Below, piece after piece: positions 13,077 to 64,000 of a stretch of 64,000 nt of DNA; position 1 is the first letter of the stretch, and each line of letters begins with the position of its first letter. This DNA comes from Paenibacillus sp. W2I17 (GTDB lineage: Bacteria > Bacillota > Bacilli > Paenibacillales > Paenibacillaceae), in contig NZ_JAUSXM010000001.1 of NCBI RefSeq assembly GCF_030815985.1, positions 5,456,001 to 5,520,000 on the forward strand, read 5' to 3'. The notes under the pieces are model-generated. The model did not search any database, was not told the DNA's origin, and worked only from the letters and a program-made list of their open reading frames with translations. A program made the position numbers and the translations under genes.

Positions 13077-13089
13077 TTTTTTTGTTTAT

Positions 13090-26085: not shown

Positions 26086-26157
26086 AAAGCGTATAAGGGA
26101 AAACCTCACGTACAGTTTGATGAGGAGGAGCAGAATATATTTACCCTTTACTCTAAC
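26086..26157 (+). mobile_element. Degenerate 3' end of a group II intron (domains V and VI)
   Basis: AAGCGTATAAGG-GAAA-ACCTCACGTACAGTT reads as a group II domain V: the catalytic AGC, a GNRA loop and ACGTAC, but with a lost C in the usual AGCCGTAT and A for G in ACGTACGG. It is followed by TTTGATGAGGAGGAGCAG... and ...CCCTTTACTCTAAC, which resembles domain VI and the 3' splice end of bacterial reverse-transcriptase introns. No intact reverse transcriptase is nearby, so this is a remnant. Confidence 0.55.
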
Positions 26158-26767: not shown

Positions 26768-28051
26768 GTGAGCATTTTTGAAAAGCTGGAATCCAACGTA
26801 AGATCTTACTGCAGAAGCTTTCCGGTGGTATTCGACCGGGCCAAGGGAGACCTTTTATATTCTGAGGACGGAAGAGCATATATTGATTTCTTTGCAGGTG
26901 CCGGGGCACTCAATTACGGCCATAACAACGATTATATTAAAGATCGGGTTCTCGATTACTTGACCTCCGACCGGATTATGCACGGTCTGGATATGTATAC
27001 AATGGCCAAGCGTGAATTCATCCAGAGCTTCTCTGAGCGGATCTTGGAGCCGAAGAAGCTGAATTACAAGCTTCAATTCTGCGGCCCAACAGGGACGAAT
27101 GCGGTGGAAGCGGCCCTGAAGCTCGCACGCAAGGCGAAGAAGAGAAGTGGAATATTCGCATTCATGGGTGGCTTCCACGGCATGTCGCTCGGCAGTCTGT
27201 CGGCGACAAGCTCCAAGTCCATGAGAGAAGGGGCGGGGCTCCCTCTGGACGGAGTTACGTTCATGCCGCACCCGAGCGGGGCTTTCGCAGAAATGGATAC
27301 GCTCGGTTATATCGAGAATATCCTGACTGATTCGCACTCCGGAATCGATAAGCCGGCTGCAATCCTGCTTGAAACGGTACAAGCCGAAGGAGGAATTCAC
27401 GTTGTCGACGCGCAGTGGCTACGCGAGCTGCAGCAGCTTTGCCGCAGGCACGATATTCTGCTCATTACAGACGAGATTCAAGTAGGATGCGGTCGGACAG
27501 GCGAATTCTTCTCCTTCGAACGTGCAGGGATCGAGCCGGATCTCATTACCCTGTCGAAGTCGATCAGCGGGTACGGCCTGCCAATGTCCCTCCTGCTGCT
27601 GAAGCCCGAACTGGATATCTGGACGCCGGGCGAGCACAACGGCACCTTCCGCGGCAACCAGCTGGCTTTTGTGGCCGCGAAGGCTGCTCTCGAGTTCCGG
27701 GACAGAACCGAACTGGAAGCTCAGGTGAAGCAGAAGGAAGAGTATGTGCGCTCGTTCCTTGATCAAGAAATCAAGCCTCTGCATCCGTCCATCGCCATCC
27801 GCGGACTCGGCCTGATCTGGGGCATTGACGTCTCGGGGTTCATGGATGAAGCCGGGGCGAAGCGGGTGACGGATATCAGCTTCGAAAACGGGCTCATCAT
27901 TGAAAGAGCCGGCAGAGGAGATTGTGTGCTGAAGATCATGCCTCCGCTTACCGTCTCGATGGAGCATCTGACCGCCGGCTGCGCCATTATCAAGTCCAGT
28001 ATGCAGCAGGTGATCTCTCAGGAGACCAAGGATTTGTTAGTAACGACCTAA
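26768..28051 (+). CDS. ectB: Diaminobutyrate-2-oxoglutarate aminotransferase (EctB-like, Dab supply)
   Basis: 427-aa class III PLP aminotransferase of the EctB/Dat type, making L-2,4-diaminobutyrate from aspartate semialdehyde and glutamate. Seen: substrate region FFAGAGALNYGHNN, FCGPTGTNAVEAALKLAR, GGFHGMSLGSLS, the PLP-binding ITDEIQVGCGRTG, the Schiff-base Lys in TLSKSISGYGLP, and GTFRGNQLAF. GTG 26768 with GGAGG 9 bp upstream is the start. No ectA or ectC is next to it, so ectoine synthesis is unlikely. The NRPS genes that follow contain Dab-type adenylation domains, making precursor supply the obvious role. GC-richer than the genes before it. Confidence 0.9.
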   Translation: MSIFEKLESNVRSYCRSFPVVFDRAKGDLLYSEDGRAYIDFFAGAGALNYGHNNDYIKDRVLDYLTSDRIMHGLDMYTMAKREFIQSFSERILEPKKLNYKLQFCGPTGTNAVEAALKLARKAKKRSGIFAFMGGFHGMSLGSLSATSSKSMREGAGLPLDGVTFMPHPSGAFAEMDTLGYIENILTDSHSGIDKPAAILLETVQAEGGIHVVDAQWLRELQQLCRRHDILLITDEIQVGCGRTGEFFSFERAGIEPDLITLSKSISGYGLPMSLLLLKPELDIWTPGEHNGTFRGNQLAFVAAKAALEFRDRTELEAQVKQKEEYVRSFLDQEIKPLHPSIAIRGLGLIWGIDVSGFMDEAGAKRVTDISFENGLIIERAGRGDCVLKIMPPLTVSMEHLTAGCAIIKSSMQQVISQETKDLLVTT

Positions 28052-28807
28052 GCTTGGCCAAGCCGATGGCCGCCCCCGGCAAGAGGCATGAAAGTGCCTT
28101 CCGGAGGGCGTGCGGACTTGATGTTAAGGTAGCGCTTTCTCCTCATGCTACCTGCGGTAACGTCAATCAGCATGGAATTCTCCGGCAATCCAAGGGCAGT
28201 ACCGTTCGTGCCATACGGAGCATTCCTTGAGTCTCATGCAGTACCCTCGTTAAATTTAATCGTCAGGAAAAGCTCACTACCCCGCAGCCGAATCTTTACT
28301 TATCCACACCAGGGCTGTGGGGGAATAAGCAAATCGTACATAGAGTGTATCAATACCCCTTAAACATAGGCTTCGTCAAAGGCAGCTCGGGTGCCAAATC
28401 AGGAGGTACGGTCGACTTCCTGCTGGACGGCTGGAACCCTGCGGCAAGCCTTACATCGACAGGAGGAACATTCCTTGTCGTCTATCCCCAAATCCAATTC
28501 CGAATCCCATGTTAAACCAAATCCCGTCTTCGGGTGGCTCGTCCGCAACAATCTTATTGAAGCAGAGGAGTCCGAAGTAACCGCATCTCTTGCGTAGAAC
28601 GATGCTTGTTGTTGTCCTTTACGCATGGGAGCCAAGCGGGACAGCTGCTAGCAGAGGATTGCCGCATGCGATCAACCGGGCAATTGAAGCGGTGACATTG
28701 CGCAAGCCAATGATATTGTTGTCAGATGTTTGAAAAGGAGGGGAGCGTTGCTTCGGCATATGCTCCGCCGGATTGCTTTTACCGATGAAGAGAGGGGAAC
28801 GATCCAG
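28052..28807. other. Gap between the aminotransferase and the first NRPS gene, no clear gene
   Basis: About 750 bp. Short open frames (28145-28363, 28391-28597 and others) show no known motif, and none has a good ribosome site, so I regard it as non-coding or decayed sequence. A strong AAAAGGAGG at 28733-28741 faces TTG 28748, in frame with the NRPS; it could be an alternative NRPS start adding 20 residues. Confidence 0.4.
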
Positions 28808-31800
28808 ATGGCTTTTGAAAAAGAAACGTTGTTTTGGAACGAAAAATTCGGTAGTGACGATTATACCTTGACGCGGTTGCCTTACAGCAAAGCTCCAAAC
28901 TCCCTGGTGCCCAATGTGAAAACCGTTGGCGGTTCGCTTTCGGAGGAAGCGGCGCAGCGCGTCCTTCAAATGAGCAAGGGTGCTCCGCTGGCTGCTTTTA
29001 TGATTTTGCTCGCCGGTGTTCAGGCACTCTTGCATAAATATACAGGAGCTTCAGACATTCTGGTCGGCATGCCGGTTGTGCCGAAAAAGGGGGAGACGCG
29101 TCGATCCGTTAATCATACGGTCATTTTGAAAAACTCGCTTTCGGTGGGGGCAACTTTTAAAACGCTGCTGAGCGAACTGAGGACTTCCTTGCCGGAAGCC
29201 ATTCAGCATCAACATATTCCGTTCTTGAAAATGACGGAGAAGCTGGACCTGCAATATGCAGAAGGGATACCCTTCGTCCATACGCTAGTATCCCTTAAGG
29301 AGTTGCATCTGGACGAAATTGGGCAAAACGTGGTCACGGACTGTTCCTTTGAATTCAGTTTAACCGGCGGGACGATACAGCTAGCGCTGTCATATAACGA
29401 GCACTTATATGACTCCGAGTTCATGAGTCGGGTCGTCGGCCACCTGAATCGCCTGCTGTCCGTGGGGCTTTATGAGCTGGAGCTGGACATCGTGCGAGCG
29501 GACATGCTGTCGGAGGACGAAAAATTTCAATTACTGCAAAGCTTTAACGATACCGAGAAGGACTATCCTCGTGATCGGACGATTCATCAGCTTGTGGAGG
29601 AGCAAGCGAAGCGTGTGCCCGAGGCGACTGCGGTTGTCTTTGAGGGGCAGCGGCTTTCATACGCAGAGTTGAACGAACGGGCAAACCAGCTGGCGCGTAC
29701 GCTACGATCGGTCGGTGTGCTGCCCAATCAGTTGGTAGGCTTGATGGTCAGGAGATCACTGGAGACGGTCATTGGCATTTTGGCGGTTCTGAAAGCTGGC
29801 GGTGCCTACGTGCCGATCGACCCGGAGTACCCGGAAGAACGTATCCGCTACATTCTGGAGAACTCGAACGCGCAGCTGCTGCTGACTCAAAGAGAGCTGT
29901 TACAGCAAGTCCCGTTCGAAGGGACCGTATTGGCGCTCGATGACGAGCAGGCCTATAGCGACGATGGCTCGAACCTGGAGGCGGCCAGTGGTCCACACGA
30001 TCTTGCTTATGTCATTTATACGTCAGGTACAACGGGCAAACCCAAAGGGGTCATGCTGGAGCATCGTGGTTTGGTCAGCTTGAAGCTGATGTTCGCAGAC
30101 AGGCTGGGCATCACGGAGCATGACCGGATCGTACAATTTGCGAGCTTGTCCTTCGACGCATCCTGCTGGGAAGTGTTCAAAGCACTCTATTTTGGCGCGG
30201 CTTTGTACATCCCGACGGCCGAGACAATTCTTGACACTCGTCTGTTCGAGAGTTATATGAACGAGCATGAGATTACGGCGGCGATTTTGCCTCCGACGTA
30301 CAGCGCTCATTTGAACCCGGACCGTCTTCCCAGCTTAACAAAGCTTGTAACGGGAGGTTCGGCGGTATCGGCCGAATTCGTGCAGCAGTGGAAAGCGAAG
30401 GTTCACTATTTCAATGCTTACGGCCCTACCGAAGCTTCGATTGTTACGACGCTTTGGGATGCGGATGAGCAGCAGCCGGAGCGCAGAGTCATTCCGATTG
30501 GGCGCCCGCTGGCTAATCATCAGATTTTTATTTTGGATGCCCACCTGCAACTTGTGCCTCCGGGAGTGGACGGCGAGCTGTGCGTGGCAGGTGTGGGGCT
30601 TGCGAGAGGTTACCTGAACCAACCGGAGCTGACGGCAGAGAAGTTTGTGGAACATCCGTTTGCGCCGGGAGAACGCCTTTACCGGACAGGAGATCTCGCC
30701 CGCTGGCTGCCGGACGGTAATATGGAGTACTTGGGCCGAATCGACCATCAGGTGAAAATCCGTGGATTCCGAATCGAGGTCGGTGAGATTGAAGAGCAGC
30801 TTCTGAAGATCGACTCGGTGCAGGAGACGATTGTAATCGCGCGGGAAGGCAAAAGCGGGCAAGAACTGTGCGCTTACCTGGTCGCTAGTCTCCCTCTTAC
30901 GCTCGGCGAGCTGAGAAGCGCGCTAGCGCAAAAATTGCCGAATTACATGATTCCTGCGCATTTTGTTCAGCTACCGCGGATGCCGCTCACGCCGAACGAC
31001 AAAATCGATCGTAAGGCTTTGCCTGCCCCGGAAGGCAACGCACTGACCGGTGGCGCGTACGTAGCTCCCCGCAATGAAACTGAGCGAACGCTTGCTGATG
31101 TGTGGCAGGCGGTATTGAACGCCGATCGTGTTGGGGTAACGGATCATTTCTTTGAGCTGGGCGGAGACTCGATCAAGTCCATTCAAGTATCTTCGCGGCT
31201 TCATCAAGCCGGGTACAAGCTGGAAATCCGGGATTTATTCAAATATCCGACGATTTCACAGCTCAGCCTGCATGTGAAACCGATCAGACGTACCATCGAT
31301 CAAGGCGAAATAACGGGTGAAACGGCTTTGACACCGATTCAGCATTGGTTTTTCGAGAGTTCCTTTGCGGACCCGCATCATTTCAACCAGTCGGTGATGT
31401 TTTATCGGAAGGAACGCTTCAACGAAGAGACAGTGTATCAGGTGCTGCAAAAGCTGGCCGAGCATCATGATGCCTTGCGCATGGTGTTCTGCAAGACGGA
31501 ACAAGGGTTTAGTGCGTTAACCCGAGCGATTCAGGATGGTGGGCTGTTCACGCTGGACGTGTTCGACTTTAAGGATGCGGAGAATCCCACGCAGGTTGTA
31601 GAAGCGAAGGCAACGGGCATTCAAGCAGGCATCGATCTGGAGAACGGGCCCCTCATGAAGGCGGGATTGTTCCAGTGCGAGGACGGAGATCATTTGCTGC
31701 TCGCGGTTCATCATGCTGTGGTAGACGGCGTGTCTTGGCGCATTTTGATGGAGGATTTCGCTCTAGGTTACGAGCAGACTGGAAAAAGCAAGGAAATTCG

Positions 31801-34800
31801 TTTCCCGGCGAAAACAGATGCGTACCGCACTTGGTCCGAGCAGCTGGCTGCTTACGCGCAAAGTCCGGAGATAGCGAAGGAACGGGCCTATTGGCAGGCC
31901 GTGGAACAAATGGAGGTTCTGGCCGTGCCGAAGGATATGGAGGCGGACGTTACGACGCAGTATGACAGCGAATCGCTGTTTGTCCGTTTGACTCCTGAAG
32001 AAACGGAGCTGCTACTGAAGCGGGTTCACCGTGCCTACAACACCGAAATCAATGATATTTTGGTAACGGCGCTCGGAATAGCCTTACACAAATGGACGGG
32101 GCACGAACGGGTGCGGATCAATCTCGAAGGACACGGACGTGAATCGATCGGAACGGATATCGACATCACGCGTACAGTTGGCTGGTTTACGACCAAGTTT
32201 CCGGTCGTACTGGAGCCGGAAACCGACCGAGATTTGGCATATCAGATTAAACAGGTCAAGGAAAACTTGCGTCGCATTCCGAACAAGGGGCTTGGGTACG
32301 GTATATGTCGCTATCTCTCGAAATCGGAGGATGGATTGGTTTGGGGCGCAGAGCCGGAAATTAATTTTAACTACCTCGGTCAGTTCGACGATGATGTCAA
32401 CCAAGACGAGATCGGCATATCTTCTTATTCCAGCGGCAGCCCGGCTAGCGACCGGCAGGCCCGCAGCTTTGTGCTGGATATCAACGGTATGGTGCTGGAC
32501 GGCGCTTTATCGCTCGATCTCAGCTACAGCCAGAAACAGTATCGCAAGGAAACGATGGAAGCCTTCGCTCAGCAACTTGAGCACAGTCTCCGAGACCTCA
32601 TTATCCACTGTGCAGGCAAAGAAAACACTGAATTGACGCCGAGCGACGTTCAATTTAAAGGCTTGACCATTGCAGAATTGGAGCAAATCGCCCAGCGCTC
32701 GGGCCATCTCGGGGAAATCGAAAATATTTACTCACTTACGCCGATGCAGAAAGGTATGTGGTTCCACAGCGCGCTTGACCGGCAAACTGCGGCTTATTTT
32801 GAGCAGACGCGGTTTACGATGCGGGGAGAGCTCGACGTCCAGCTTTTTGAGAGGAGTTGGATGGAACTTGCGAAACGTCATCTGGTGCTGCGGGCGAATT
32901 TTGTGAAAGGACCCGCGGGCGAGCCACTGCAAATCATATACCGCGACAAACCGGTCGGTTTTGAATATGAAGAGCTGCTTCATTTGCAGATGGACGAGAA
33001 ACAAGCTTACTTGGATAAAAAGGCTGAGGAGGACAAGCTTCGCGGCTTCGACATGGAACATGACGCGCTCGTTCGGTTCACGATCCTGCGCACCGAAGAG
33101 CAAAGCTATCATGTACTGTGGAGTTTCCAACATATTTTGATGGACGGCTGGTGCCTGGCTCAGCTGACGCAGGAGCTGTTTGAGGCATACTCGGCCTTGG
33201 CATCCGGCGAGCAATCAGCGGGAGATAAGGGATCGGATTATGGGGCCTATATCGAATGGTTGGAGAAACAGGACGATCAGGCGGCATCAGCCTATTGGAT
33301 GGCATTCCTGGCAGGTTATGAAGGGCAAACCGTACTCCCTGGACAAAAGGAACTGGCGCTCAACGGCAGATTTACGGCTGATCACGTCACCGTCGAACTG
33401 GGCAAGGACTTGAGTGAGCGGATGGACCGGGTGGCGAAACAGCGCCTGGTTACGGTCAATACACTGCTGCAAGCTATTTGGGGCGTGATGCTGCAAAAAT
33501 ATAACGGAACAAACGATGCCGTATTTGGCAGCGTCGTAGCCGGAAGACCGGCGGAAATTCCGGGCATTGAGTCCATGATCGGGCTGTTCATCAATACGGT
33601 GCCGGTCCGGGTGACGAGTGAAGCGGACACCGTGTTCGCCGACCTGATGGCGAAGCTTCAAGAGCGGGCACTGGAGTCCGGGCGTTATGATTACTATCCG
33701 CTGTATGAAATTCAGGCCCGCAGCGTGCAAAAGCAGAACCTGATCAACCATATCATCGCTTTTGAGAACTATCCGGTGGACGAGCAGATGGAGCAGGCGG
33801 GGGACCAGCAGCACGGCGACCTGACGATTGCTGATGTTCAGATGGAGGAGCAGACAAACTATAACTTTAACGTCACCGTGGTGCCGGGAGACGAGATCGA
33901 AATTCGGTTCGACTTTAACGCCGAAGTGTTTGATAAAGACAGCATTGAGCGGCTCAAGGGGCATCTCGTTCATTTGCTGGAGCAGGTGACGGATAACCCG
34001 GAGATTACCGTGGGCGAGCTGGAACTTGTGACGGAGGCGGAAAAGGCTGACCTTCTCGGACGTTTTAACGACACCACAACAGAATTTCCACGCGGGAAAA
34101 CGCTCATTCAATTGTTCGAAGAGCAGGTGGAGCGCATCCCGAATGCAGCTGCCATCTCCTTGAATGGGCAAGAACTGACCTACCGCGAGTTGAACGAACG
34201 CGTTAACCGTCTTGCTCGTACCTTGCGTAGCCACGGGATATCCAAAGGTCGCCTGGTCGCTATTATGGCTGAGCGTTCCATCGAAATGGTGGTGGGTATG
34301 CTGGCGGCACACAAAGCCGGTTCGGCTTACGTACCGATTGACCCGGAATATCCCGAGGAGCGTATCCGTTTCTTGATCGAGGATTCGGGTGCGCAGGTCA
34401 TGCTGACGCAAAGTCGATTGCGCGAGCGCCAGGCGGGTTCTTACTCCGTGATTTTACTGGATGACGAGTCCTTCTATCACGAATACGGTACAAATCTAAA
34501 TCAAGGTAGCGAAGCGACAGATCTGGCTTGCATCATCTATACGTCAGGCACGACGGGCAAGCCAAAAGGCAACCTTGTTTCACACCGCAATATCGTGCGG
34601 ATCGTGCGAAATACGAATTATATCGACATCACTGAGCGGGATCATGTCCTCCAGCTTTCGAGCTATTCGTTCGACGGAGCGATTTTTGATATTTTCGGCG
34701 CTTTGACCAACGGGGCACGGCTGGTGCTTGTTCCCCACGAGACTTTACTGGAAATCGGCAAGCTGGCGGATCTCATCCAGCGCGAGCGAATTTCGGTCAT

Positions 34801-43756: not shown

Positions 43757-43923
43757 TATTACAAGCGCGCCTCCGCCGTCAAGCGAAAGTGGTGCGCATC
43801 CCATGGAAGACGGCGAACAACTTGCAAGTCCGTAAATCAAGCCCGTAAACGCGCAGGCCGAAAGTAAGTTTTTTCGGATCTGCGCCGGGGCATGCGGTCA
43901 CTTCATTTTTAGGGGAGGTACGA

Positions 43924-46900: not shown

Positions 46901-47232
46901 AATTAATGAGCAATCCGCTCGTGCGGGAGCGTGTTCATCGGAAGATCAAAGCCACCTTGACGTACGAAGCGCAGCTTATTAATTCAGGCACGATAACTGC
47001 CCGGATTTACGAACTGATTGCGAAGGACAGCGAAGCGTTCCGCCTGGAGCACCAGTTGCCGTCCTGGCAGAGGGCAACGACGCAAGCTTACGCCGATTAC
47101 CGGCTGGAGGGCGCACACGAAGAATTACTGGAACTCGCGCGCGTGGACGAAACGGCCGTTGTCATCCGTGATATCTTAGTGCAAATCAAGCAGCAGATCG
47201 AAGCGGAGGCCGGGGTCCTGCATGGGAGCTGA
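43924..47232 (+). CDS. pmxB: One-module NRPS with thioesterase, polymyxin synthetase subunit B-like
   Basis: 1102 aa: N-terminal half condensation domain lacking HHxxxDG (about 1-250, MKSLFEKEERYW...), A (about 260-760), T with LGGNSLSL (~812), thioesterase (about 870-1102). The code DFWNIGMVHK read by eye is the standard Thr code, matching Thr10 of polymyxins. The thioesterase nucleophile elbow reads GYCFGG, so Cys 936 replaces the usual Ser; an Asp follows in VLMVDSW and a late His in GAHEE. The domain should release and cyclise the peptide. ATG 43924 has GGGAGG 5 bp upstream, 167 bp after the previous stop. The next gene overlaps it by 11 bp. Confidence 0.9.
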   Translation: MKSLFEKEERYWSSKFDDDDSLSFLPYSQSSKLSVGGEAAAEPALLHRTLPSELSERIIRLANGSDLALYMIVLAGVKGLLFKYTGQDQVLVGMPSYSGDPDVTQPPHDILVIKTSVSSQTTLKTLLGGIKASIGEALEHQHLPFRKMVEPLHLDYTGEGLPVITTVASFTPIHPEPLGNRVAADTVFRFDRQNDSIELEISFDGHRYERAFVEQTADHLVRLLSVLVFQPDLELGQADVLSPDERETLLNRFNDNETGFERGKTIHGLFEEQAELYPDNVAVVMNERQLTYRELNERSNRLARKLRETGVEADQLVAILAERSLDMVVGILAILKAGGAYVPVDPDYPEERIRFMIEDSGVPLLLIQKHLHGKTDFAGTRLEIDDFVWGDSGADSEGALDASNLEPISGPENLAYVIYTSGTTGKPKGTLIEHKNVVRLLFNDKNLFDFGRFDTWTLFHSFCFDFSVWEMYGALLYGGKLVIVPPLTAKNPTDFLALLGREQVTILNQTPTYFYQLLRKVLADHPYDLRIRNVIFGGEALSPLLLKGFKTKYPETKLINMYGITETTVHVTYKEITWVEMEAAKSNIGKPIPTLRVYVLDENRRPVPIGVAGEMYVAGEGLARGYLNRPDLTAEKFIDSPFAEGEKLYRSGDLATWLPDGNIEYLGRIDHQVKVRGYRIELDEIETQLLNARGVEETVVLARDDANGHKQLVAYYVAETKLAANELKEQLAKQLPGYMIPAHLVQLSQMPLTANGKIDRKALPVPEEAAARGAEYVAPRTLLEMKIARVWQDTLGIPQVGVKDNFFELGGNSLSLMRLVQAVYDETGIEIPLNRQFHSVTVEAMAFGEEDLGLDKGGDSFIKLNKTGDLNVFCFPPGSGFGIGYRELASRLDGRFMLYGIDFIDDATDYDAMLNRYVDEIVRIQPEGPYVLLGYCFGGNLTFEVAKTMERRGHSVTDVLMVDSWIKDTLTPYETSEKELEEMLADFDEEEKELMSNPLVRERVHRKIKATLTYEAQLINSGTITARIYELIAKDSEAFRLEHQLPSWQRATTQAYADYRLEGAHEELLELARVDETAVVIRDILVQIKQQIEAEAGVLHGS

Positions 47233-50778: not shown

Positions 50779-50860
50779 ACCATTACGACGAGCGGCTTCC
50801 TGCTGATATCTAGATAAAAAGCCTATCTACAAACAATCTCTAATACGGGAGTGTGTCGAT

Positions 50861-53800: not shown

Positions 53801-56800
53801 CCTCGCACAACGCTGGAAACCAGACTTGCGCTTATTTGGCAGCAGGTGCTGGGTATTGCGCGAGTTGGAGTCCAAGACGATTTCTTTGACCTGGGTGGTC
53901 ATTCCTTGCGGGCCTCCGCCCTTGTTTCCAAGATTCGAAAAGAGCTGCAAGTCGAGGTTCCGCTGCGGGACGTTTTCCGCTACACCATGATCGAACAGCT
54001 GGCCCAAAGAATCGGCGGTTTAAAGCAGCAGGAGACGTATGAGATTACAAAAGCGGCAGAGGCCGAGTACTATCCGGTTTCATCCGAGCAAAAACGTCTG
54101 TACGTCCTGCGCCAGCTTGACGCGGCCGAGCGTAGCTACAATATGTCGGCGGCGCTTCTTCTCGAAGGCAAGCTGGACCGCCCGCGCGTAGAGTACGCGT
54201 TCCGGGCGCTGATTCAGCGCCATGAGACGCTGCGTACCGGGATTGAGCAGGTTCAAGGCGAGCTTGTGCAGCGCATCTATGACGAGGTGGAGTTTGCTGT
54301 AGACTATTTCCAGGCGAGCGAGCGAGAAGTGGACCAAGTGGTGGAAGCATACTATCACCCGTTTGATCTGACCAAGCCGCCACTTCTTCGCATCGGCCTG
54401 ATCGAAGTCGCCGAGGATCGCCACATCCTGTTGTTCGATATGCACCATATCATCTCGGATGGCATCTCGACAGCGCTGCTTTTCGACGAGTTCAGCCGTC
54501 TGTATCGGGGTGAGGAGCTGGCTCCGTTGCGTATTCAATACAAAGATTATGCCGTTTGGCAGCATTCCGAAGCCTACGGGCAATTGATCCAGCCGCAGAA
54601 GGAGTACTGGCTGGAACAGCTGTCGGGCGAGCTGCCTGTATTGGAACTTCCAACGGACTTCCCGCGGTCTGCGGTGCAAAGTTTTGACGGCCGGACCGTG
54701 AAGTTTGATATTGGGAAAGAGCGGACGGAGAAGCTGAAAGAACTGGCCGCACGGACGGGCACGACCCTGTACATGGTGCTGTTGTCTGCTTACTCGATCC
54801 TTATGCATAAATATTCGGGTCAGGAAGATCTGATCGTGGGAACGCCGATTGCCGGAAGAACGCAGGAAGAAGTGCAGCCAATCGTAGGTATGTTTATCAA
54901 CACACTTGCCATTCGCAGCCAGCCAGAGCGTTCCAAGCCGTACCTTAAGTACCTGGAAGAAATGAAGGAAATCACACTTGGGGCTTTTGAACACCAAAAT
55001 TATTTGTTCGAAGATTTGGTGGAAAGTCTTCACATTCCGCGCGCGACCGGCCGGAATCCGCTCTTTGATACGTTCTTCTCCCTGCAAAATACGGAGAATG
55101 AGCAAATTGTCATCGAGGGGCTGGAGCAATCGTTTTATCCGTTGGAAAACCGAACGTCCAAGTTCGAGCTGCTTCTGGACATTTCGGAGCTGGACGGTCA
55201 GCTCGAATGCCGGTTGGAATACGCTACGGCTTTGTATAAACAGGAGACCGCGGAGCGGTTCGCCAGACATTATGACAAGCTACTCGAAACTATCGCAACA
55301 GCACCCGAAGGGGATATTGCTTCGCTGGAAATGCTAACGGAGCAGGAAATCCGTGAACTGGTGCGAGGTTTCAATGATTCGGAGGCAGACTACCCGCGGC
55401 AGCAGACGATTCATGGCTTGTTTGAAGAGCAGGCAAAGCTTTACCCGGATAACGTGGCCGCCGTCATGAATGAGCGGCAGTTGACCTACTGCGAGCTGAA
55501 CGAGCGATCCAACTGGCTTGCGCGCCAGCTGCGGGAGACGGGAGTCGAAGCGGATCAGTTGGTAGCGATTCTGGCCGAACGTTCGCTTGATATGGTCGTC
55601 GGCATTCTGGCGATTCTCAAAGCGGGTGGAGCCTACGTGCCTGTCGATCCCGACTACCCGGAGGAACGCATCCGCTTCATGATTGAGGATTCGGGCGCAC
55701 CGTTATTGCTGATTCAAAAGCATTTGCATGAGAAGACCGACTTCGCAGGAACGCGCCTTGAATTGGACGATTTCGTTTGGGGCGACAAAGGGGCGGACTC
55801 CGTTGGTGAGCTGGACGCTTCGAATCTAGAGCCGATTTCCGGGCCGGGTAACTTGGCTTATGTCATCTACACGTCGGGAACGACCGGCAAACCCAAAGGC
55901 ACGTTGATTGAGCATAAAAACGTCGTGCGCCTTTTGTTCAACGACAAGAACCTGTTCGACTTTGGGCCGTCCGACACTTGGACGTTATTCCACTCGTTCT
56001 GCTTCGATTTCTCCGTCTGGGAGATGTACGGAGCGTTGCTGAATGGAGGAAAGCTGGTTATCGTACCGCCGCTTACGGCGAAAAATCCGGCCGAGTTCCT
56101 GGCACTGCTGAGCCGCGAACGGGTCACGATTTTGAACCAGACGCCAACATATTTCTACCAACTGCTGCGTGAGGTTTTAGCGGACCATCCGTACAATCTG
56201 CGGATTCGCAACGTCATCTTCGGCGGCGAAGCGCTCAGCCCGCTGTTGCTCAAGGGTTTCAAGACGAAGTACTCGGAGACAAAGCTGATCAATATGTACG
56301 GTATTACCGAGACGACGGTTCACGTGACGTATAAGGAAATCACATGGATCGAGATGGAAGCGGCGAAGAGTAATATCGGCAAGCCGATCCCAACGCTGAG
56401 CGTGTACGTTCTGGATGAAAATCGTCGTCCTGTTCCGATCGGCGTAGCAGGCGAAATGTACGTGGCCGGGGAAGGCTTGGCGAGAGGATACCTGAATCGC
56501 CCGGATCTGACGGCGGAAAAGTTCGTTGATTCGCCGTTTGCGGAGGGGGAGAAACTGTACCGTTCGGGTGACTTGGCGGCCTGGCTACCGGACGGCAACA
56601 TTGAATACCTCGGCCGGATCGACCATCAGGTCAAAATCCGCGGGTACCGGATCGAGCTGGACGAAATCGAGACGCAACTTCTGAACGTGGAGGGCGTGGA
56701 AGAAGCGGTAGTGCTCGCCCGTCAGGACAACGGGGGCGAGAAGGCGCTTGTTGCCTACTTTGTGGCGGACCGGACGCTGACGGTTAGCGAAATGAGAACC

Positions 56801-59800
56801 TCGCTGGCCCAGGGAATGCCGGGATACATGATCCCGTCGTACTTCGTGCAGCTGGAATGCATGCCGCTGACGTCCAACGGGAAAGTGGACCGCAAAGCAC
56901 TGCCGGAGCCGCAAGGCGGCTTGCAAACGGGCGTTGAATACGTAGCGCCGCGTAACCTTACGGAGTCCCAGCTTGTGAAAATCTGGGAGGAAGTGCTGGG
57001 TTACTCCGGCATTGGGGTCCTGGACAATTTCTTCGAGCTCGGAGGGCATTCCTTGCGGGCGACAAACCTTGTCAGCAAGATTCGGAAGGAAATGAACGTT
57101 GAACTTCCGCTGCGCGATGTGTTCCGCTATATGACGATAGAAGCGATGGCTGGGGCTATTGCCAGCTTGGAAGAATCAGAGCACAGCACGATTCCAGTAG
57201 CGGAAGAGAAAGCATACTATCCGGTTTCCTCTGCACAAAAAAGGCTGTACGTCCTGCACCAGCTGGATAGCTTGGAGCTGAATTATAACCTCCCAAGCGC
57301 CTTGCAATTGGAAGGGACTTTGAACGAGGCCAAAGTAGAAGATGCGCTGACTACTTTGATGACCCGGCACGATATGCTGCGCACCGGTTTTGAAATCGTG
57401 AATGGGGAGCCGATTCAGCGTATTCATCCGCTCGTCGCTTTCAAGGTCGAGAAGATTCAAGCAAGCGAAGATCAGGTTGCAGCCATTTTTGAAGGCTTCA
57501 TTCAGCCTTTTGATTTGACCCAGCCGCCTTTGTTGCGCACCCTGCTGATCGAATTGGAGAAAGAAAAATTCCTGCTCGCGCTGGATATGCATCACATTGC
57601 TTCAGACGGCCTTTCCATGGATGTGCTGCTGCGTGAATTCGTGCGGCTTTACAATGGGGAAGAATTGCCGGAGCTGCGGATTCAATACAAGGATTACGCC
57701 GTTTGGCAGCAATCCAAGGAACAGCGTCAACGCATCAAACGACAGGAGGAATACTGGCAAGGGGTATTCAGCTCCGAGCTTCCGGTTCTTGAGTTACCTC
57801 TTGACTACTCCCGTCCAGCCGTTCAGCAGTTTGACGGTCAAACGCTCACGTTTAGGCTCGATGCGGAGAAAGGAGAAGCTCTTAAACAGCTTGCCAGCGA
57901 TTCGGGGGCGACGCTGTACATGCTTCTGCTGGCTGCGTACTCCGTATTGCTTCATAAATACGCGGGACAGGAAGATATAGTAGTCGGCACTCCGATTGCC
58001 GCTCGTTCTCACGCCGACTTGCAGCCGATTATCGGCATGTTTGTCAATACGCTGGCCCTTCGCTTGGGTCCGACGACAGAGCGGACGTTTATGGATTACT
58101 TGCAGGAAGTGAAGGAAACGACGCTTGGAGCCTACGAGCACCAGGACTATCCGTTTGAGGAGCTGGTAGAAGCTCTTCAGGTGAGCCGGGATTTAAGCCG
58201 GAATCCGCTGTTTGACACCATGTTTTCTTTGCAAAAGCACGAAAGCCTGGATTTAACCCTGGAAGGCTTGCAATGGTCGCTGTTTGACATCGAGGAAAAG
58301 ACGGCGAAGTTTGATCTTAGCTTGGATATCGTTGAAGAGGGTAACGAGTTAGTTTGCAAGATCGAGTACGCTACCTCGTTGTTTAAACAGGAAACGATGG
58401 TACGGCTTGCGGGTCATTACGAGCAGCTTTTGGCGTCGATCCTGGCTCAGCCGGGTGCGCGGATTTCGGATTTGGATATATTGACGGACAGCGAAAAGGA
58501 TAATTTATTGGTCGGGTTTGACGTGTCGTCTTCGGCTCTTGTGAAGCAACCCGCTACAGAGGGTACAGGTCTGGAAGCGGATGAGTCGTGGAGAGAGAGA
58601 ACGTTCCACGAGCTGTTCGAGGAGCAGGCGGAGCGCACTCCGGGAGCGCTGGCGGTTGTCTACGAAGACAGCAAGCTGACGTATGCGGAGCTGAACGCCA
58701 AAGCGAATCGTTTGGCGTATGTACTGCGGGCACGTGGGGTGAAGCCGGAACAGGTGGTCGGCATTCTGGCCGGCCGTTCGGCCGAGCTGTTGATCGGGGT
58801 ACTCGCCGTATGGAAAGCTGGCGGCGCTTATGTACCGCTTGACCCCGATTATCCAGCGGAGCGGATCGAATATATGCTCGCGGACAGCGAGGCATCAGTG
58901 CTGCTTACGCAGACTTGCCTGTTGGAGCAGGCGGAAGCTTGGCGCAGCAACGGAGCTTTAACGCTGCAAACGGTGCTTGCACTTGATGACGCCGCGGCGT
59001 ACAGCCTCGGAGCGGCGGAAACAGATGTAGCCTTACAAGCTTTAGGCGAAGCGGGCGCGGAGGCTTTGGTGCAAGTGGCAATGGCTGCTGTCGAAACATC
59101 TGCCACGGCAGAAGCTGAGCAGAACATACAAGCGGAGGATCTCGCATCAAATCCGGCAAATGTGAACAAGCCAGGCGATCTGGCTTACGTCATCTACACC
59201 TCCGGTACGACGGGCCGTCCGAAGGGCGTGGCAGTGGAACACCGCAGCTTGGTGAACACGGCGGCGGGCTACCGGCGGGACTACCGCCTGGATCAGTTCC
59301 CGATCCGGCTGCTGCAACTTGCCAGTTTCTCGTTTGATGTGTTCGTTGGTGACATTGCACGGACGCTGTACAACGGTGGAACTATGGTCATCGTGCCGAA
59401 AGAAGACCGGATTGATCCAACCCGCCTCTATGGCTGGATTCGTGATTACGCCGTGACGGTGTTCGAATCAACTCCGGCGCTGGTCGTGCCGTTCATGGAG
59501 CATGTGTATGCCGAGGGTCTGGACCTCAGCTCGATGCAGCTGCTGATCACAAGCTCGGATGCGTGCAGTGTAGCGGATTACCGCACATTGCAGGAGCGCT
59601 TTGGCTCGCAGTTCCGTATTATTAACAGCTACGGCGTAACGGAAGCAGCGATTGACTCCAGCTTCTATGACGAGCCGCTGGAGAAGCTGCCGAACACGGG
59701 CAGCGTGCCAATCGGGAAAGCGTGGCTTAACGCCAGATTCTACATCGTGGATACAAATCTGAAGCCAGTGCCGATCGGGGTGCTCGGCGAGCTGGTTATC

Positions 59801-62800
59801 GGTGGAGTGGGTGTGGCCCGCGGTTACTTGAACCGCCCGGATTTAACGTTGGAGAAATTCGTAGATAGCCCGTTCACCGCTGGGGAGCGGTTGTACCGGA
59901 CGGGTGATCTGGCACGCTGGATGCCTGACGGCAACGTAGATTTCATCGGCCGAATCGACAATCAGGTGAAAATTCGTGGTTATCGGATCGAGCTTGGTGA
60001 GATTGAAGCGGCCATGAAAAATGTTGCCGAGGTGCGGCAAGCGCTTGTCATCGACCGGACGGACGAGCGGGGGCAGAAATATCTGTGCGGATATGTCGTA
60101 GTGGATTCCAGCTTCGATCTGGAAGGGCTTGTGGCCCATCTGGACGCCGTACTGCCTTCTCATATGGTGCCTTCGCGCATCATGCTTCTCGATCAATTGC
60201 CGCTTACACCGAACGGCAAGATCGACCGTAAAGCGTTGCCTGTGCCGGAAGGAAGCATTCGTGCCGAGGCTGCATACACGGCGCCGCGTACTCCTGCCGA
60301 GAAAGCACTCGCGTTGGTCTGGCAGTCAGTGTTAGGCGTGGATCAGGTTGGCACCATGGATAATTTCTTTGCGCTTGGTGGCGATTCAATTAAAGCTTTA
60401 CAGGTATCTTCTCGTCTTTTGCAAACGGGGTACAAGCTGGTCATGAAAGATTTGTTCCATTACCCGACGATCTCCGCCCTTAGTTTGCGGTTGCAAACAG
60501 CCGAGAGAACGGCAAGCCAGGCCGAAGTGACGGGAGAGGTTATCCTGACCCCGATTCAGCGGTGGTTCTTTGAACAAAATCAGGCCGACGTTCATCACAG
60601 CAACCAGGCATTTATGCAGTTCTCCAAGCAAGGCTTTGATGAAAAAGCTTTACGCCAAGCGGTGCGTCAGCTTATCGTGCATCACGATGCTCTTCGTACG
60701 GTTTATCGTCAAACCGAGAATGGTTATACCGTCTGGAACCGCGGCGCTGGGGAGAACGAAGTGCTGTTCGATCTGGAAGTTGTCGATTTCAAGGGAGCCC
60801 GGGACGTGAAAGAAGCGGTAGAGGCGAAGGCAAATGACATTCAAGCAAGCATCGATCTGGAAAACGGTCCGCTGGTGAAGCTTGGTTTGTTCCGCTGCGA
60901 CGATGGCGACCATCTGCTCATCGCAATCCATCACTTGGTCGTAGACGGCGTATCCTGGCGGATTCTGCTTGAGGATTTTGCTGCCGCCTATGAGCGGGCG
61001 CTGCAAGGGCAGCCGATCCGCCTGCCGCTCAAAACGGATTCATTCCAAACGTGGGCGAAACAGCTCGCTGATTATGCGAACGGGCCGGCGATGGAAAGCG
61101 AGAGAGCGTATTGGCAGTTTATCGAGCAATTGGCCTATGAGCCGCTTCCGAAAGATTTTGAACAAGGCAGATCCAAGCTGAAGGACAGCGGGCTCGTAAC
61201 CGTGCGATGGACAGCGGACGAAACCGAACAGTTGCTGAAGCAGGCTCACCGTGCTTACCATACGGAAATGAATGATTTGCTGCTTGCTGCGCTGGGCCTC
61301 TCAGTACAAGCTTGGAGCGGTCAGGAACGCGTGCTGGTGAATCTCGAAGGCCACGGCCGGGAAGAACTTTTGCCAGATGTAGACATTACGCGCACGGTAG
61401 GCTGGTTTACAAGCCAATTCCCTGTCGTTCTGGAGCCGGGTCACGCTCAGACGCTCGGTCATCAGGTGAAACAGGTCAAAGAAAGCTTGCGCCGCATTCC
61501 GAACAAAGGGATCGGCTATGGCATCCTGCGTTATTTGTCGGCGCCGCGTGAAGGTGAGTACTTCGTTTTGGAGCCGGAGATCAGTTTTAACTATTTGGGT
61601 CAGTTCGACCAGGATTACGAAAGCAGTAGCTCGCAGCCGTCTCCGTTCAGCCCGGGCTCCGATTCAAGCCCAAATGCTGTGATGGATTATGTCCTCGATA
61701 TCAACGGTATGGTGTCGGAAGGCGTGTTGGAACTCACGATCCGTTATGGGGAAACCCAGTATCAACGGGAGACGGTTGAGCGCCTGGGCACCCTGCTTCA
61801 ATCGAGATTGCGTGAAGTCATCAGCCATTGCGTATCGAAAGAGCGGCCTGAGCTTACGCCTAGTGACGTACTTCTTCAAGATGTGACGGTGGAGGAACTG
61901 GAGCGGCTGTCCGAACATACGGCGGCACTCGGCGAACTGGAGAATGTATACACCCTGACTCCACTGCAAAAAGGGATGTTGTTCCACAGCCTGCTGGATG
62001 CCGATTCGGGAGCTTACTTCGAACAGGTGACCTTCGATCTGTACGGAAGCCTGAATGTGGAAGCCTTCACCCGAGGATTGGATACGCTGGTGCAGCGGAA
62101 TGAGGCGCTGCGGACCAACTTTATTACCGGCTGGAGAGACGAGCCGATTCAAGTGGTATTCCGCGAGCGGAAGTGCGAAGTGCACTTTGAAGATATTCGC
62201 TCGGCAAGAGATGAACAAGCGGAGAAGACGATAGCTGAGTTTGTCAGCGCGGATAAAGCGAACAAGTTCGATTTGGCCCAAGACTCTCTTATGCGTGTGA
62301 CCGTTTTGCGCACAGGCGACGAGTCCTACCATGTGATCTGGAGTCATCATCACATTTTGATGGACGGCTGGTGCATGTCCTTCATGATCAAGGAAGTGTT
62401 CGACACTTACTTTGCGTTTCAGGAGAAGCGAGCGCTAGAGCTTCCTCCGGTTACTTCGTACTCCCGGTATATCGAATGGCTGGAAGCTCAAGATGTAGCG
62501 AAAGCTTCGGGTTACTGGTCAGAGTATTTGGCGGGTTACGATCAGCAGACCAAGCTGCCGCAGGAGACAACGCAGCTGAAACAGCATGCTTTTGAAATGG
62601 CTGAAATCGATGTGGAACTCAGCAAAGGACTGACCGGGCAAATTGAGCGTGTGGCGCGCCAGCAGCAGGTGACACTCAACACGTTTATGCAGACTGTATG
62701 GGGACTGGTCCTACAGATATACAACAACAGCGAGGATGTCGTGTTCGGCTCCGTTGTATCCGGGCGTCCGGCGGAAATTCCGGGCATCGAAAGCATGATT

Positions 62801-64000
62801 GGCCTGTTTATTAATACGATCCCGGTCCGTATTCAAGGTAAAGCCGAGGAGACGGTAGCCGATATTTTGAGAAAAACCCAGGATCAAGCGCTGGCATCGG
62901 GAGCTTACGAAACGTTCCCGCTGTTCGAAATTCAGTCGCTGAGCGAGCAAAAGCGTGACTTGATCAACCATATCATGGTCTTTGAAAATTATCCGATGGA
63001 AGAACAGATTGAGCAAGTTGTCGGCGGAGGCCAAGAAGCGCTGAAAATCGCTAATATCCAATCGCCGGAACAAACGAACTATGACCTGGACATTACCGTC
63101 ATTCCTGAAGAGCATATTTTGCTGCGGTTTACGTACAATGCACTGACGTTCAGAGAGCAAGACATCAGGCAGATCCACGGTCATTTTGCCCGTGCATTGG
63201 AGCAGGTTGCGGCTAATCCGAATGTTTGTGTAAATGAGTTAGAGCTTTTGACAGCGGCGGAAAAAGAAGAAATTGTCGGCGTGTTTAATCCGGTGCAGCC
63301 GGAAGTGGCTCCTGTGGCCGCCTTCCATCGCCTGTTCGAGGAACAGGTGGAACGCACGCCAGAAGCGGAGGCCATCGTATTCGAGAACGATCGGCTGACG
63401 TACGCGGAGCTGAACGAGCGGGCGAATCGCTTGGGGGCAACGCTGCGTGCAAGCGGCATCGGCCGGGAGACCATCGTTGGCATTCTCGCCGAGCGTTCGG
63501 TCGATTTGCTGGTGGCCGTGATGGCCGTCTGGAAAGCGGGAGGGGCGTATGTACCGCTTGACCCGGATTATCCTGCGGACCGCGTGCGGTTCATGCTGGA
63601 AGACAGCGGAGCGAAGGTGCTTCTGACACAAAACCTGCTGCGAGAGCGTGCCGAATCCTGGCTCGGCGAAGAGGAACTAGCACTGGAGACGGTGCTGTAT
63701 CTCGATGACGAAACGTCATACAGCGAAGACCGAGCGAATGCACCAATGGACTTCGGCCAAGGCTCCAGCATGGTTTCAGGTTTGGTCTCCGGCGAGCTGA
63801 CGGGTGCTGTGAACGACCGTAATGAGAGTCATCCAAATGATGTTGATGTTGTCGGTATGGGCAGCTTCCATGAAGCCCGTCCGGAGGATCTGGCGTACGT
63901 CATCTACACGTCGGGAACGACGGGCAAGCCAAAAGGCGTGATGATCGAGCACCGCAGCCTGGTGAACACGGCGGCGGGTTACCGACGGGAATACCGGTTG
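50861..64000 (+). CDS. pmxE: Large lipo-initiating NRPS, polymyxin synthetase subunit E-like (cut by window end)
   Basis: Open from GTG 50861 (GGGAG 9 bp upstream) to the last base, 4380 residues in frame; the 3' end is missing. Order: starter C (about 1-430; active site NHIIADG), A1, T1 LGGHSLRA (~1011); C (HHIISDG ~1195), A2, T2 (~2060); C (HHIASDG ~2244), A3, T3 LGGDSIKA (~3171), E (HHLVVDGVSW ~3357); DCL-type C (LTPLQKGM ~3699, HHHILMDGW), A4 cut before its pocket. Codes by eye: A1 DVGEISSIDK (Dab), A2 DFWNIGMVHK (Thr), A3 Dab-type (DVGEISSIDK), so D-Dab after epimerisation. A4 is nearly identical to the Dab domain at 40490-42100 as far as it goes, so Dab is likely. This gives acyl-Dab-Thr-D-Dab-Dab, the start of a polymyxin. 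Confidence 0.88.
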   Translation, partial: MRENTNKQYGLTQAQRRIWFMEIMNPGTSITMLSATYQITGEIDTKLLEQAAAEIVKTYDAFRIRISGDLQNPTQWFEEPENVQAQISHLEIGTTEQFYAWVKEVTEKPASVFDEHLYQFTMIHFANGQVWLNLTVNHIIADGLSVTALLHAVMEKYLELRKGIFSSYQAPSYLDYISTEHEYEQSQRYQKGKEYWLTKYNTLPETSGIKSVPPFSIGSESNKRSITLDGSRYDRILAFSEQYQVSLYTLFLSAMYALLYKLTDSTDVPVGTVFANRTSKKEKETIGMFVSTVATRISLNPDGSVLSLIQTVSKENTADLRHQKYPYNQLIQDLREQHGRNDLSELFRTSLEYLPLKIVEYEEIKVRLEAHFARHEMGDLLLRFDHMLNEGHVILHASYRTGLFEMAEIDRIMEQYVTVLDQFLETPELRVREISLLSDEERHRILGVFNPPVAALSEGIPFHRYVEKFARDIPDHPAVVYMDKKLTYGELNERADRLASLLREQGVGRETITGIWAERSVELLVGVLAVWKAGGAYVPLDPDYPAERIEYMLSDSEASVLLTQRHLLEGAGGWLADDRLKLQAVYAMDDEQMYNGDTSAVEFESADSAPQDLAYVIYTSGTTGRPKGVMIEHGSLVNTADAYRREYRLDQFPVRLLQLASFSFDVFVGDIARTLYNGGTMVIVPKDDRIDPNRLYGWIRQQNITVFESTPALILPFMQHIYEEGLDVSSMQLLITSSDACSVTDYQLLQERFGGQFRIINSYGVTEAAIDSSFYDEPLDKLPSLGHVPIGKAWLNARFYIVDAGLKPVPVGVPGELVIGGAGVARGYWNRPDLTTEKFADSPFVPGERLYRTGDLARWLEDGNVDFIGRIDYQVKIRGFRIELGEIETALLRFPGVKQAVVTDRTDEQGQKYLCGYVAGDDSLQMSDLLSQLKQELPAHMVPARLVSLDQLPLTPNGKIDRKALPEPTGEVEAGREYVAPRTTLETRLALIWQQVLGIARVGVQDDFFDLGGHSLRASALVSKIRKELQVEVPLRDVFRYTMIEQLAQRIGGLKQQETYEITKAAEAEYYPVSSEQKRLYVLRQLDAAERSYNMSAALLLEGKLDRPRVEYAFRALIQRHETLRTGIEQVQGELVQRIYDEVEFAVDYFQASEREVDQVVEAYYHPFDLTKPPLLRIGLIEVAEDRHILLFDMHHIISDGISTALLFDEFSRLYRGEELAPLRIQYKDYAVWQHSEAYGQLIQPQKEYWLEQLSGELPVLELPTDFPRSAVQSFDGRTVKFDIGKERTEKLKELAARTGTTLYMVLLSAYSILMHKYSGQEDLIVGTPIAGRTQEEVQPIVGMFINTLAIRSQPERSKPYLKYLEEMKEITLGAFEHQNYLFEDLVESLHIPRATGRNPLFDTFFSLQNTENEQIVIEGLEQSFYPLENRTSKFELLLDISELDGQLECRLEYATALYKQETAERFARHYDKLLETIATAPEGDIASLEMLTEQEIRELVRGFNDSEADYPRQQTIHGLFEEQAKLYPDNVAAVMNERQLTYCELNERSNWLARQLRETGVEADQLVAILAERSLDMVVGILAILKAGGAYVPVDPDYPEERIRFMIEDSGAPLLLIQKHLHEKTDFAGTRLELDDFVWGDKGADSVGELDASNLEPISGPGNLAYVIYTSGTTGKPKGTLIEHKNVVRLLFNDKNLFDFGPSDTWTLFHSFCFDFSVWEMYGALLNGGKLVIVPPLTAKNPAEFLALLSRERVTILNQTPTYFYQLLREVLADHPYNLRIRNVIFGGEALSPLLLKGFKTKYSETKLINMYGITETTVHVTYKEITWIEMEAAKSNIGKPIPTLSVYVLDENRRPVPIGVAGEMYVAGEGLARGYLNRPDLTAEKFVDSPFAEGEKLYRSGDLAAWLPDGNIEYLGRIDHQVKIRGYRIELDEIETQLLNVEGVEEAVVLARQDNGGEKALVAYFVADRTLTVSEMRTSLAQGMPGYMIPSYFVQLECMPLTSNGKVDRKALPEPQGGLQTGVEYVAPRNLTESQLVKIWEEVLGYSGIGVLDNFFELGGHSLRATNLVSKIRKEMNVELPLRDVFRYMTIEAMAGAIASLEESEHSTIPVAEEKAYYPVSSAQKRLYVLHQLDSLELNYNLPSALQLEGTLNEAKVEDALTTLMTRHDMLRTGFEIVNGEPIQRIHPLVAFKVEKIQASEDQVAAIFEGFIQPFDLTQPPLLRTLLIELEKEKFLLALDMHHIASDGLSMDVLLREFVRLYNGEELPELRIQYKDYAVWQQSKEQRQRIKRQEEYWQGVFSSELPVLELPLDYSRPAVQQFDGQTLTFRLDAEKGEALKQLASDSGATLYMLLLAAYSVLLHKYAGQEDIVVGTPIAARSHADLQPIIGMFVNTLALRLGPTTERTFMDYLQEVKETTLGAYEHQDYPFEELVEALQVSRDLSRNPLFDTMFSLQKHESLDLTLEGLQWSLFDIEEKTAKFDLSLDIVEEGNELVCKIEYATSLFKQETMVRLAGHYEQLLASILAQPGARISDLDILTDSEKDNLLVGFDVSSSALVKQPATEGTGLEADESWRERTFHELFEEQAERTPGALAVVYEDSKLTYAELNAKANRLAYVLRARGVKPEQVVGILAGRSAELLIGVLAVWKAGGAYVPLDPDYPAERIEYMLADSEASVLLTQTCLLEQAEAWRSNGALTLQTVLALDDAAAYSLGAAETDVALQALGEAGAEALVQVAMAAVETSATAEAEQNIQAEDLASNPANVNKPGDLAYVIYTSGTTGRPKGVAVEHRSLVNTAAGYRRDYRLDQFPIRLLQLASFSFDVFVGDIARTLYNGGTMVIVPKEDRIDPTRLYGWIRDYAVTVFESTPALVVPFMEHVYAEGLDLSSMQLLITSSDACSVADYRTLQERFGSQFRIINSYGVTEAAIDSSFYDEPLEKLPNTGSVPIGKAWLNARFYIVDTNLKPVPIGVLGELVIGGVGVARGYLNRPDLTLEKFVDSPFTAGERLYRTGDLARWMPDGNVDFIGRIDNQVKIRGYRIELGEIEAAMKNVAEVRQALVIDRTDERGQKYLCGYVVVDSSFDLEGLVAHLDAVLPSHMVPSRIMLLDQLPLTPNGKIDRKALPVPEGSIRAEAAYTAPRTPAEKALALVWQSVLGVDQVGTMDNFFALGGDSIKALQVSSRLLQTGYKLVMKDLFHYPTISALSLRLQTAERTASQAEVTGEVILTPIQRWFFEQNQADVHHSNQAFMQFSKQGFDEKALRQAVRQLIVHHDALRTVYRQTENGYTVWNRGAGENEVLFDLEVVDFKGARDVKEAVEAKANDIQASIDLENGPLVKLGLFRCDDGDHLLIAIHHLVVDGVSWRILLEDFAAAYERALQGQPIRLPLKTDSFQTWAKQLADYANGPAMESERAYWQFIEQLAYEPLPKDFEQGRSKLKDSGLVTVRWTADETEQLLKQAHRAYHTEMNDLLLAALGLSVQAWSGQERVLVNLEGHGREELLPDVDITRTVGWFTSQFPVVLEPGHAQTLGHQVKQVKESLRRIPNKGIGYGILRYLSAPREGEYFVLEPEISFNYLGQFDQDYESSSSQPSPFSPGSDSSPNAVMDYVLDINGMVSEGVLELTIRYGETQYQRETVERLGTLLQSRLREVISHCVSKERPELTPSDVLLQDVTVEELERLSEHTAALGELENVYTLTPLQKGMLFHSLLDADSGAYFEQVTFDLYGSLNVEAFTRGLDTLVQRNEALRTNFITGWRDEPIQVVFRERKCEVHFEDIRSARDEQAEKTIAEFVSADKANKFDLAQDSLMRVTVLRTGDESYHVIWSHHHILMDGWCMSFMIKEVFDTYFAFQEKRALELPPVTSYSRYIEWLEAQDVAKASGYWSEYLAGYDQQTKLPQETTQLKQHAFEMAEIDVELSKGLTGQIERVARQQQVTLNTFMQTVWGLVLQIYNNSEDVVFGSVVSGRPAEIPGIESMIGLFINTIPVRIQGKAEETVADILRKTQDQALASGAYETFPLFEIQSLSEQKRDLINHIMVFENYPMEEQIEQVVGGGQEALKIANIQSPEQTNYDLDITVIPEEHILLRFTYNALTFREQDIRQIHGHFARALEQVAANPNVCVNELELLTAAEKEEIVGVFNPVQPEVAPVAAFHRLFEEQVERTPEAEAIVFENDRLTYAELNERANRLGATLRASGIGRETIVGILAERSVDLLVAVMAVWKAGGAYVPLDPDYPADRVRFMLEDSGAKVLLTQNLLRERAESWLGEEELALETVLYLDDETSYSEDRANAPMDFGQGSSMVSGLVSGELTGAVNDRNESHPNDVDVVGMGSFHEARPEDLAYVIYTSGTTGKPKGVMIEHRSLVNTAAGYRREYRL
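63635..63888 (+). repeat. Block shared with 40793-41040 (Dab adenylation domains)
   Basis: Partner copy of the block at 40793, 254 bp because of a 6-bp insertion (TCCAGC) after GGCCAAGGC. Confidence 0.9.

Follow-up and report, generated by a model that had tools for sequence, protein, structure and literature searches.

Polymyxins are last-resort drugs, and the locus described here has the layout of the pmxA-B-C-D-E polymyxin synthetase cluster of P. polymyxa. The A-domain codes of pmx are read as Dab-Thr-Dab-Dab-Dab-Leu-Leu-Dab-Dab-Thr, and macolacin-type clusters specify Ser3, Ile7 and Leu10. pmx clusters are scattered over Paenibacillus species, and no vehicle for them is known to us. A hallmark of Tn7 is its attachment site, attTn7, which lies behind glmS. 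In Paenibacillus sp. W2I17, a colistin-type pmx cluster and a Dab gene are very probably the cargo of a Tn7-like unit, about 44.5 kb long, that inserted behind glmS and has since become immobile in this lineage.

Gene content and predicted product

The stretch of DNA analyzed (the window) comprises 64,000 nucleotides, positions 5456001-5520000 of the single contig (C1) of the 7.0 Mb host genome (G000). The pmx cluster was found to be complete, with its last 5.9 kb extending past the window. All of its genes are on the forward strand. pmxA (28730-43756) encodes a four-module NRPS with modules 6-9 (D-Leu, Leu, Dab, Dab) and pmxB (43924-47232) a one-module NRPS with module 10 (Thr) and a thioesterase (PF00501, PF00550, PF00975 and a partial PF00668). 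They are followed by two ABC exporter genes, pmxC (47222-49048) and pmxD (49045-50778), both matching PF00664 and PF00005, and by pmxE (50861-64000, continuing to genome position 5525865), an open frame of 6352 aa with a starter C domain and modules 1-5 (Dab, Thr, D-Dab, Dab, Dab). The following features of a pmx cluster were present: gene order, ten modules, starter C, epimerase at module 6, thioesterase and two ABC exporters, together with codes that predict Dab1, Thr2, Dab3-5, hydrophobic residues at 6 and 7, Dab8-9 and Thr10.

An ectB-like diaminobutyrate transaminase gene (26768-28051, forward strand) scored 585.1 bits against TIGR02407, with a cut-off of 552.2, and is presumably the Dab supplier of the cluster. 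An ectB of at least 91% identity adjoins glmS in 18 of the 75 genus genomes, and all 18 carry pmx. pmxA and pmxB begin with the C-terminal half of a condensation domain only (window 28730-29500 and 43924-44700), and pmxA and pmxE finish with a nearly full one (genome positions 5498419-5499702 and 5524537-5525832), followed by acidic-hydrophobic tails (...VDTIEFAF and ...EAIDIIF). The half and full domains and the tails could perhaps serve docking between subunits.

The A-domain codes, which combine two extractions with residues 299 and 301 checked by eye, were DVGEISSIDK, DFWNIGMVHK, DVGEISSIDK, DVGEISAIDK and DVGEISAIDK for modules 1-5 in pmxE, DAWIVGAIVK, DGFLLGLVYK and twice DVGEISAIDK in pmxA, and DFWNIGMVHK in pmxB. 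Epimerase motifs after modules 3 and 6 indicate D-Dab3 and D-Leu6. The predicted product is acyl-Dab-Thr-D-Dab-Dab-Dab-D-Leu-Leu-Dab-Dab-Thr, which would be colistin-like with D-Dab3. Leu rather than Phe at position 6 is suggested by contrast with G026, G027 and G028, which have the Phe-like code DAWTIAAIAK at this position. Judging by codes and domain order, EctB would make Dab, PmxE would acylate Dab1 and add residues 1-5, PmxA would add residues 6-9, PmxB would add Thr10 and cyclize the chain, and PmxC and PmxD would export the product. Coordinates and domains confirmed the original prediction of a four-module NRPS, a one-module NRPS with thioesterase, two ABC proteins and a large NRPS with starter C, and the polymyxin-type codes that it had listed, with epimerases after modules 3 and 6, were also borne out.

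Sister genomes G033, G067 and G068, which have pmx at the same place as the window, carry a Ser code at position 3 (DVWHFSLVDK, completed by eye), one of Ile/Val type at 7 and, at 10, DAWIVGAIVK. Strain ISL-58 likewise has the Ser code in module 3, together with Thr at position 10. For G033, G067 and G068, identity to the window fell to 65% over the bin holding module 3 and to 83% over that of the pmxB A domain; the module 7 bin, at 88%, was hardly under the other bins (mostly 87-98%). The variation in product is read as A-domain exchange, plain at positions 3 and 10 but more doubtful at 7. Macolacin-type and colistin-type clusters occupy one locus in sister species, and A-domain exchange should be directly traceable there. 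In Paenibacillus sp. OVF10 (G054) the pmx reading frames are split into many pieces, perhaps by sequencing error or by decay.

Insertion site and Tn7-like ends of the window copy

The 3' end of glmS (23468-25300, forward strand; Pfam SIS and glutamine amidotransferase) was identified as the insertion site. A glmS ribozyme (22989-23208, forward strand; Rfam RF00234, 58.7 bits) lies upstream of the gene, and glmS gave a single match in each of the 75 genus genomes. Further upstream, a complete rRNA operon with two 5S genes and 13 tRNA genes occupies window positions 6795-13160.

ectB and pmxA-E are bracketed by a left end and its inverted copy, and the whole block is missing in pmx-free sisters. 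From the left end behind glmS to the inverted copy behind pmxE, the block measures 44,666 bp. The sequence following the glmS stop reads CGTCTAGTGATAAATAAGTGTAGAACCATTAACAAAAGTATGGAAC. The Tn7-like left end, CGTCTAGTGATAAATAAGT (25330-25348, forward strand), is separated from the glmS stop by 29 nt and is followed by a second similar site. It begins with C, not T, and has three mismatches to the consensus TGTCTGGTGATAAAAAAGT, a score equalled by none of 1000 shuffles; the consensus was drawn up with several of the tested sequences in view. Over 50 bp, the left end had an identity of 0.78 to the left end of a tns-bearing element in G013 and of 0.84 to unit B of P. woosongensis, compared with at most 0.62 for shuffles. 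Behind pmxE, from 112 nt past its stop, the inverse of the left-end motif was found, ACTTTTTTATCACCTGACA, and the right end of the unit was placed outside the window at genome positions 5525977-5525995. Only the terminal 19-30 bp of the right end fit, the right 110 bp being at shuffle level (0.50).

Of the 18 pmx-free genomes examined, 10 have the DNA found downstream of the window's block no more than 2.3 kb from the glmS stop. In three of these ten (G001, G015 and G041) homology starts 22 nt past the glmS stop, corresponding in the window to a position about 5 nt past the right end. The other eight of the 18 have different DNA behind glmS.

The window copy thus shows insertion at the glmS 3' end with an empty site in relatives, and inverted ends with repeated sites. 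A 5-bp target duplication was not seen (TTTAT against AAAGT), and tnsABC and tnsD/tniQ were absent from the copy; the host genome lacks TniQ and a TnsB of matching type, and an HTH relic is all that is left. Since tnsABC and tnsD are missing, the window copy is classed as a defective derivative, a relic, and not as a transposon proper. The HTH gene relic (25488-25637, forward strand) matched the HTH gene of P. woosongensis unit B with 57% over 51 aa in tblastn (E 7e-10), and related elements carry an HTH gene at the same place, at their left end.

A group II intron remnant (26085-26157, forward strand) matched RF00029 with 36.2 bits and E 1e-4, below the Rfam cut-off of 40. The position behind glmS, given in the original prediction, was confirmed, with glmS directly upstream; of the intron remnant said to adjoin the cluster, a match was found, at this sub-threshold score. 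The original prediction had missed ectB and the transposon ends, and gave no mechanism. A terminator-like hairpin (25456-25484, forward strand) lies inside the element by the left end, in a region with five terminator-like sites compared with a shuffle mean of 3.3. A glmS-type terminator is now found beyond the right end, at about genome position 5526040. Related elements seem to bring a hairpin near their left end too, and such hairpins perhaps restore termination of glmS.

Distribution of pmx and of Tn7-like elements behind glmS

PmxD of at least 93% identity was found in 37 of 394 family genomes, including 23 of the 75 genus genomes; the next match in this sample was at most 67%. Further pmx loci at 76-77% were found in a named collection (P. 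oleatilyticus, P. tianmuensis and others). Based on the coordinates of PmxD, glmS and ectB, pmx lies behind glmS in 31 of the 37 positive genomes and elsewhere in two, P. agilis (G270) and P. arenosi (G274), while G018, G275, G284 and G298 could not be decided. pmx and glmS share one contig in 17 genus genomes and nine others; the five additional genomes counted as glmS-linked (G004, G006, G029, G044 and G046) have contig breaks in pmx and the linked ectB beside glmS. The distance from glmS to pmxA is about 3-17 kb, and 29 kb in P. woosongensis. Four genomes of the presumed polymyxa group (G025-G028) also have pmx behind glmS. Finding a polymyxin-type cluster in species other than P. polymyxa is nothing unusual, and an unusual locus was rejected, with pmx behind glmS in 31 of the 33 genomes that could be decided. 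Plasmid carriage was also rejected: 225 of 72,556 plasmid records matched pmxC-D, none over more than 80% of the query, and those listed were at the level of ABC transporters.

Left ends were scored as matching with six or fewer mismatches, a shuffle fraction of at most 0.05 and a position 23-29 nt past the glmS stop. By this criterion 20 of 31 pmx loci have a left end and 11 have none; of the 20, those of G028 and P. aquistagni probably belong to a different family of ends. Four of the 18 pmx-free genomes (G013, G060, G061 and G063) also passed, with what look like other Tn7-like insertions, and G010 passed the score at a position of 19 nt. A right end after pmxE was found at 12 of 29 loci; at the other 17, none was found in the 5-12 kb read behind pmxE. 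With up to four mismatches allowed, the end pattern gave 53 matches in 1.69 Mb, some stretches entering the count more than once, and a single shuffle of this sequence still gave 15, so that isolated weak matches are meaningless.

Both ends were present at 11 loci: the window, G003, G036 (left end weak, with six mismatches), G051, G054, G026, G028, P. woosongensis, P. agilis, sp. 2.1 and G288. The window, G003, G036, G051 and G054 represent one lineage, not five events. The first nine units in this list are 44.2-44.7 kb long, those of sp. 2.1 and G288 50.4 kb and 49.0 kb. One of the 11 units has a plain 5-bp duplication and nine have none; sp. 2.1 would show the duplication TGCAC only with a left end beginning a few nucleotides earlier than at other loci, and it was therefore not counted. 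The unit of P. agilis has both ends and lies away from glmS. In P. agilis and P. arenosi, pmx follows a left end in an identical 12-nt flank, and the glmS site of both is taken by a different Tn7-like element (TnsB 38%).

Relatives with tns genes were found at the same site. P. woosongensis 12CR55 (G161, also G079) has two elements with matching ends in tandem behind glmS. Element A (26,079 bp) carries an HTH gene, intact tnsA, tnsB-like and tnsC-like genes and two tnsD/tniQ genes; Pfam supported TnsA and both TnsD, while the TnsB-like protein matched only Mu-transpos_C and the TnsC-like protein AAA_22 and TniB. Unit B (44,704 bp) carries an HTH gene, ectB and pmx, and is bordered by AATAT on either side, a 5-bp target duplication. 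Identity between the 110-bp right end of element A and the right ends of five pmx units (P. woosongensis B, P. agilis, G028, sp. 2.1 and G288) was 80-90%, and no shuffle exceeded 58%. In G013, which lacks pmx, an intact element of 30,073 bp with a like end type lies behind glmS; it has intact tnsA/B/C-like genes, two tnsD genes and TTAAA on both sides. Two right ends are possible in this element, and only the outer one yields the duplication. In front of pmx, G025, G026, G027, G028 and BJ-4, all of the presumed polymyxa group, retain a left end, HTH sequence and a tnsA that is broken or truncated, and G026 has an ectB relic beside pmx. Read by eye, the pmx unit of G027, G028 and G288 seems to lie behind the end of another Tn7-like family.

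Several Tn7-like families with differing ends and cargo fill the glmS 3' site in Paenibacillaceae (P. woosongensis element A, the P. agilis glmS region and G013), at times stacked in tandem. The cargo at this site includes what look like defense-type genes.

Origin of the locus and comparison with known systems

The rpoB tree covered 40 of the 75 genus genomes. The nearest rpoB matches of the host were G003 (99.1%), Paenibacillus sp. OVF10 (98.7%) and P. xylanexedens DSM 21292 (98.5%), compared with about 83% for a ten-genome clade with P. maysiensis and BJ-4, which we take to be the P. polymyxa group, no member being named P. polymyxa. By rpoB, ISL-58 belongs to the clade of the window (98.5% identity), and the name P. 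polymyxa under which it was deposited is probably wrong. GC was 0.540 for pmx and 0.543 for ectB, compared with 0.446-0.458 for the flanks. A mere NRPS bias as the cause of the high GC was ruled out by four other NRPS regions of the host genome, at 0.419-0.468. A host outside P. polymyxa and an island richer in GC than its flanks, both claimed in the original prediction, were thereby upheld, and so was its overall reading of an acquired polymyxin-type cluster, acquisition being supported by the foreign GC and by the low divergence of pmx from the presumed polymyxa group. The idea that locus or host is special was not supported.

The pmxC+D tree was calculated from 36 of 57 loci, after 21 duplicate or distant loci had been dropped. 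In it, all 17 amylolyticus-like rows group together (support 94, not starred); the presumed polymyxa group, P. alvei and other genera are attached through short branches. The conflict between pmx and species lies in the amounts of divergence, the amylolyticus-like rows already being a clade in the best pmx tree. The trees and identities are read as recent spread of pmx between genera, probably with mostly vertical descent within the amylolyticus-like group. Six sampled pmx-free genomes are nested in the rpoB clade of the window, which implies losses or repeated gains of pmx.

That pmx was ancestral to the genus at the glmS site and lost many times, making transfer unnecessary, would agree with the site and intergenic DNA common to the amylolyticus-like and presumed polymyxa groups, with the ectB relic in G026 and with the single amylolyticus-like clade. 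This origin is contradicted by the divergence values and is very improbable: between the window and the presumed polymyxa group, rpoB identity is 83% but that of PmxC 95-96% and of PmxD 96-97%; towards G026, bins of pmx DNA reach 83-94% while glmS is at 79%; towards G069, rpoB (92%) and glmS (90%) are closer than pmx DNA (78-87%). PmxD of other genera is at 94-97%, and the GC of pmx is out of line with the host genome. Somewhat less improbable, and still unlikely, is a spread of pmx by homologous recombination via the conserved glmS flank, the Tn7-like ends belonging to unrelated elements of a hot spot. Recombination could explain spread within a species group, and the glmS 3' end is indeed crowded, with other Tn7-like ends in pmx-free G013, G060, G061 and G063 and stacked elements in G027, G028, G288 and P. 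woosongensis; a plain 5-bp duplication is seen in one pmx unit only. The tight bracketing of ectB-pmx by both ends at 11 loci, with near constant length in nine, the bracketed P. agilis unit away from glmS and the target duplication of P. woosongensis unit B argue against it.

Tn7-like transposition is favored because of the ends, the site, the duplications and the tns-bearing relatives. In its common form, represented by the window copy, P. woosongensis unit B and the P. agilis unit, the element would lack a transposase and be moved in trans: TnsABC and TnsD of a relative with matching ends would move it, and TnsD would pick glmS. In a wider model, a discrete unit of about 44.5 kb, made up of left end, ectB, pmxABCDE and right end and devoid of a transposase, would travel between Paenibacillaceae with help in trans from TnsABC and TnsD of Tn7-like elements resident in the same host, line up in tandem with these at glmS and later alter its synthetase by swapping A domains, chiefly in modules 3 and 10; this model has in our judgment an even chance of being right. 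A transposon unit would explain the spread of polymyxin production between distantly related species, and natural polymyxin diversity would, if the model holds, come from a mobile unit whose parts can be exchanged. With its defined ends, a Tn7-like unit would provide a mechanism, a search pattern (behind glmS, between the ends) and a testable need for a helper.

The window agrees with the P. polymyxa pmx cluster in the order of its genes, in having ten modules and a starter C, in the placement of the thioesterase on the subunit with one module, in its pair of ABC exporters and in its codes. It differs from G025-G028 by its linked ectB, which is absent or a relic beside pmx in those genomes. 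Its code at position 6 is of the D-Leu6 type, and its module 3 has an epimerase that is missing from G025 and G026. With the macolacin-type clusters of sister genomes G033, G067 and G068 it shares the locus, but it has Dab3, Leu7 and Thr10. Tn7 and Tn7-like elements are matched by the site about 25 nt past the glmS stop, by TGT...ACA ends with repeated AT-rich sites and, in relatives of the window unit, by 5-bp duplications and TnsA/B/C/D-like genes. Unlike them, the unit of the window lacks tns genes and shows no visible duplication, and its cargo is a 41-kb NRPS cluster together with a precursor gene.
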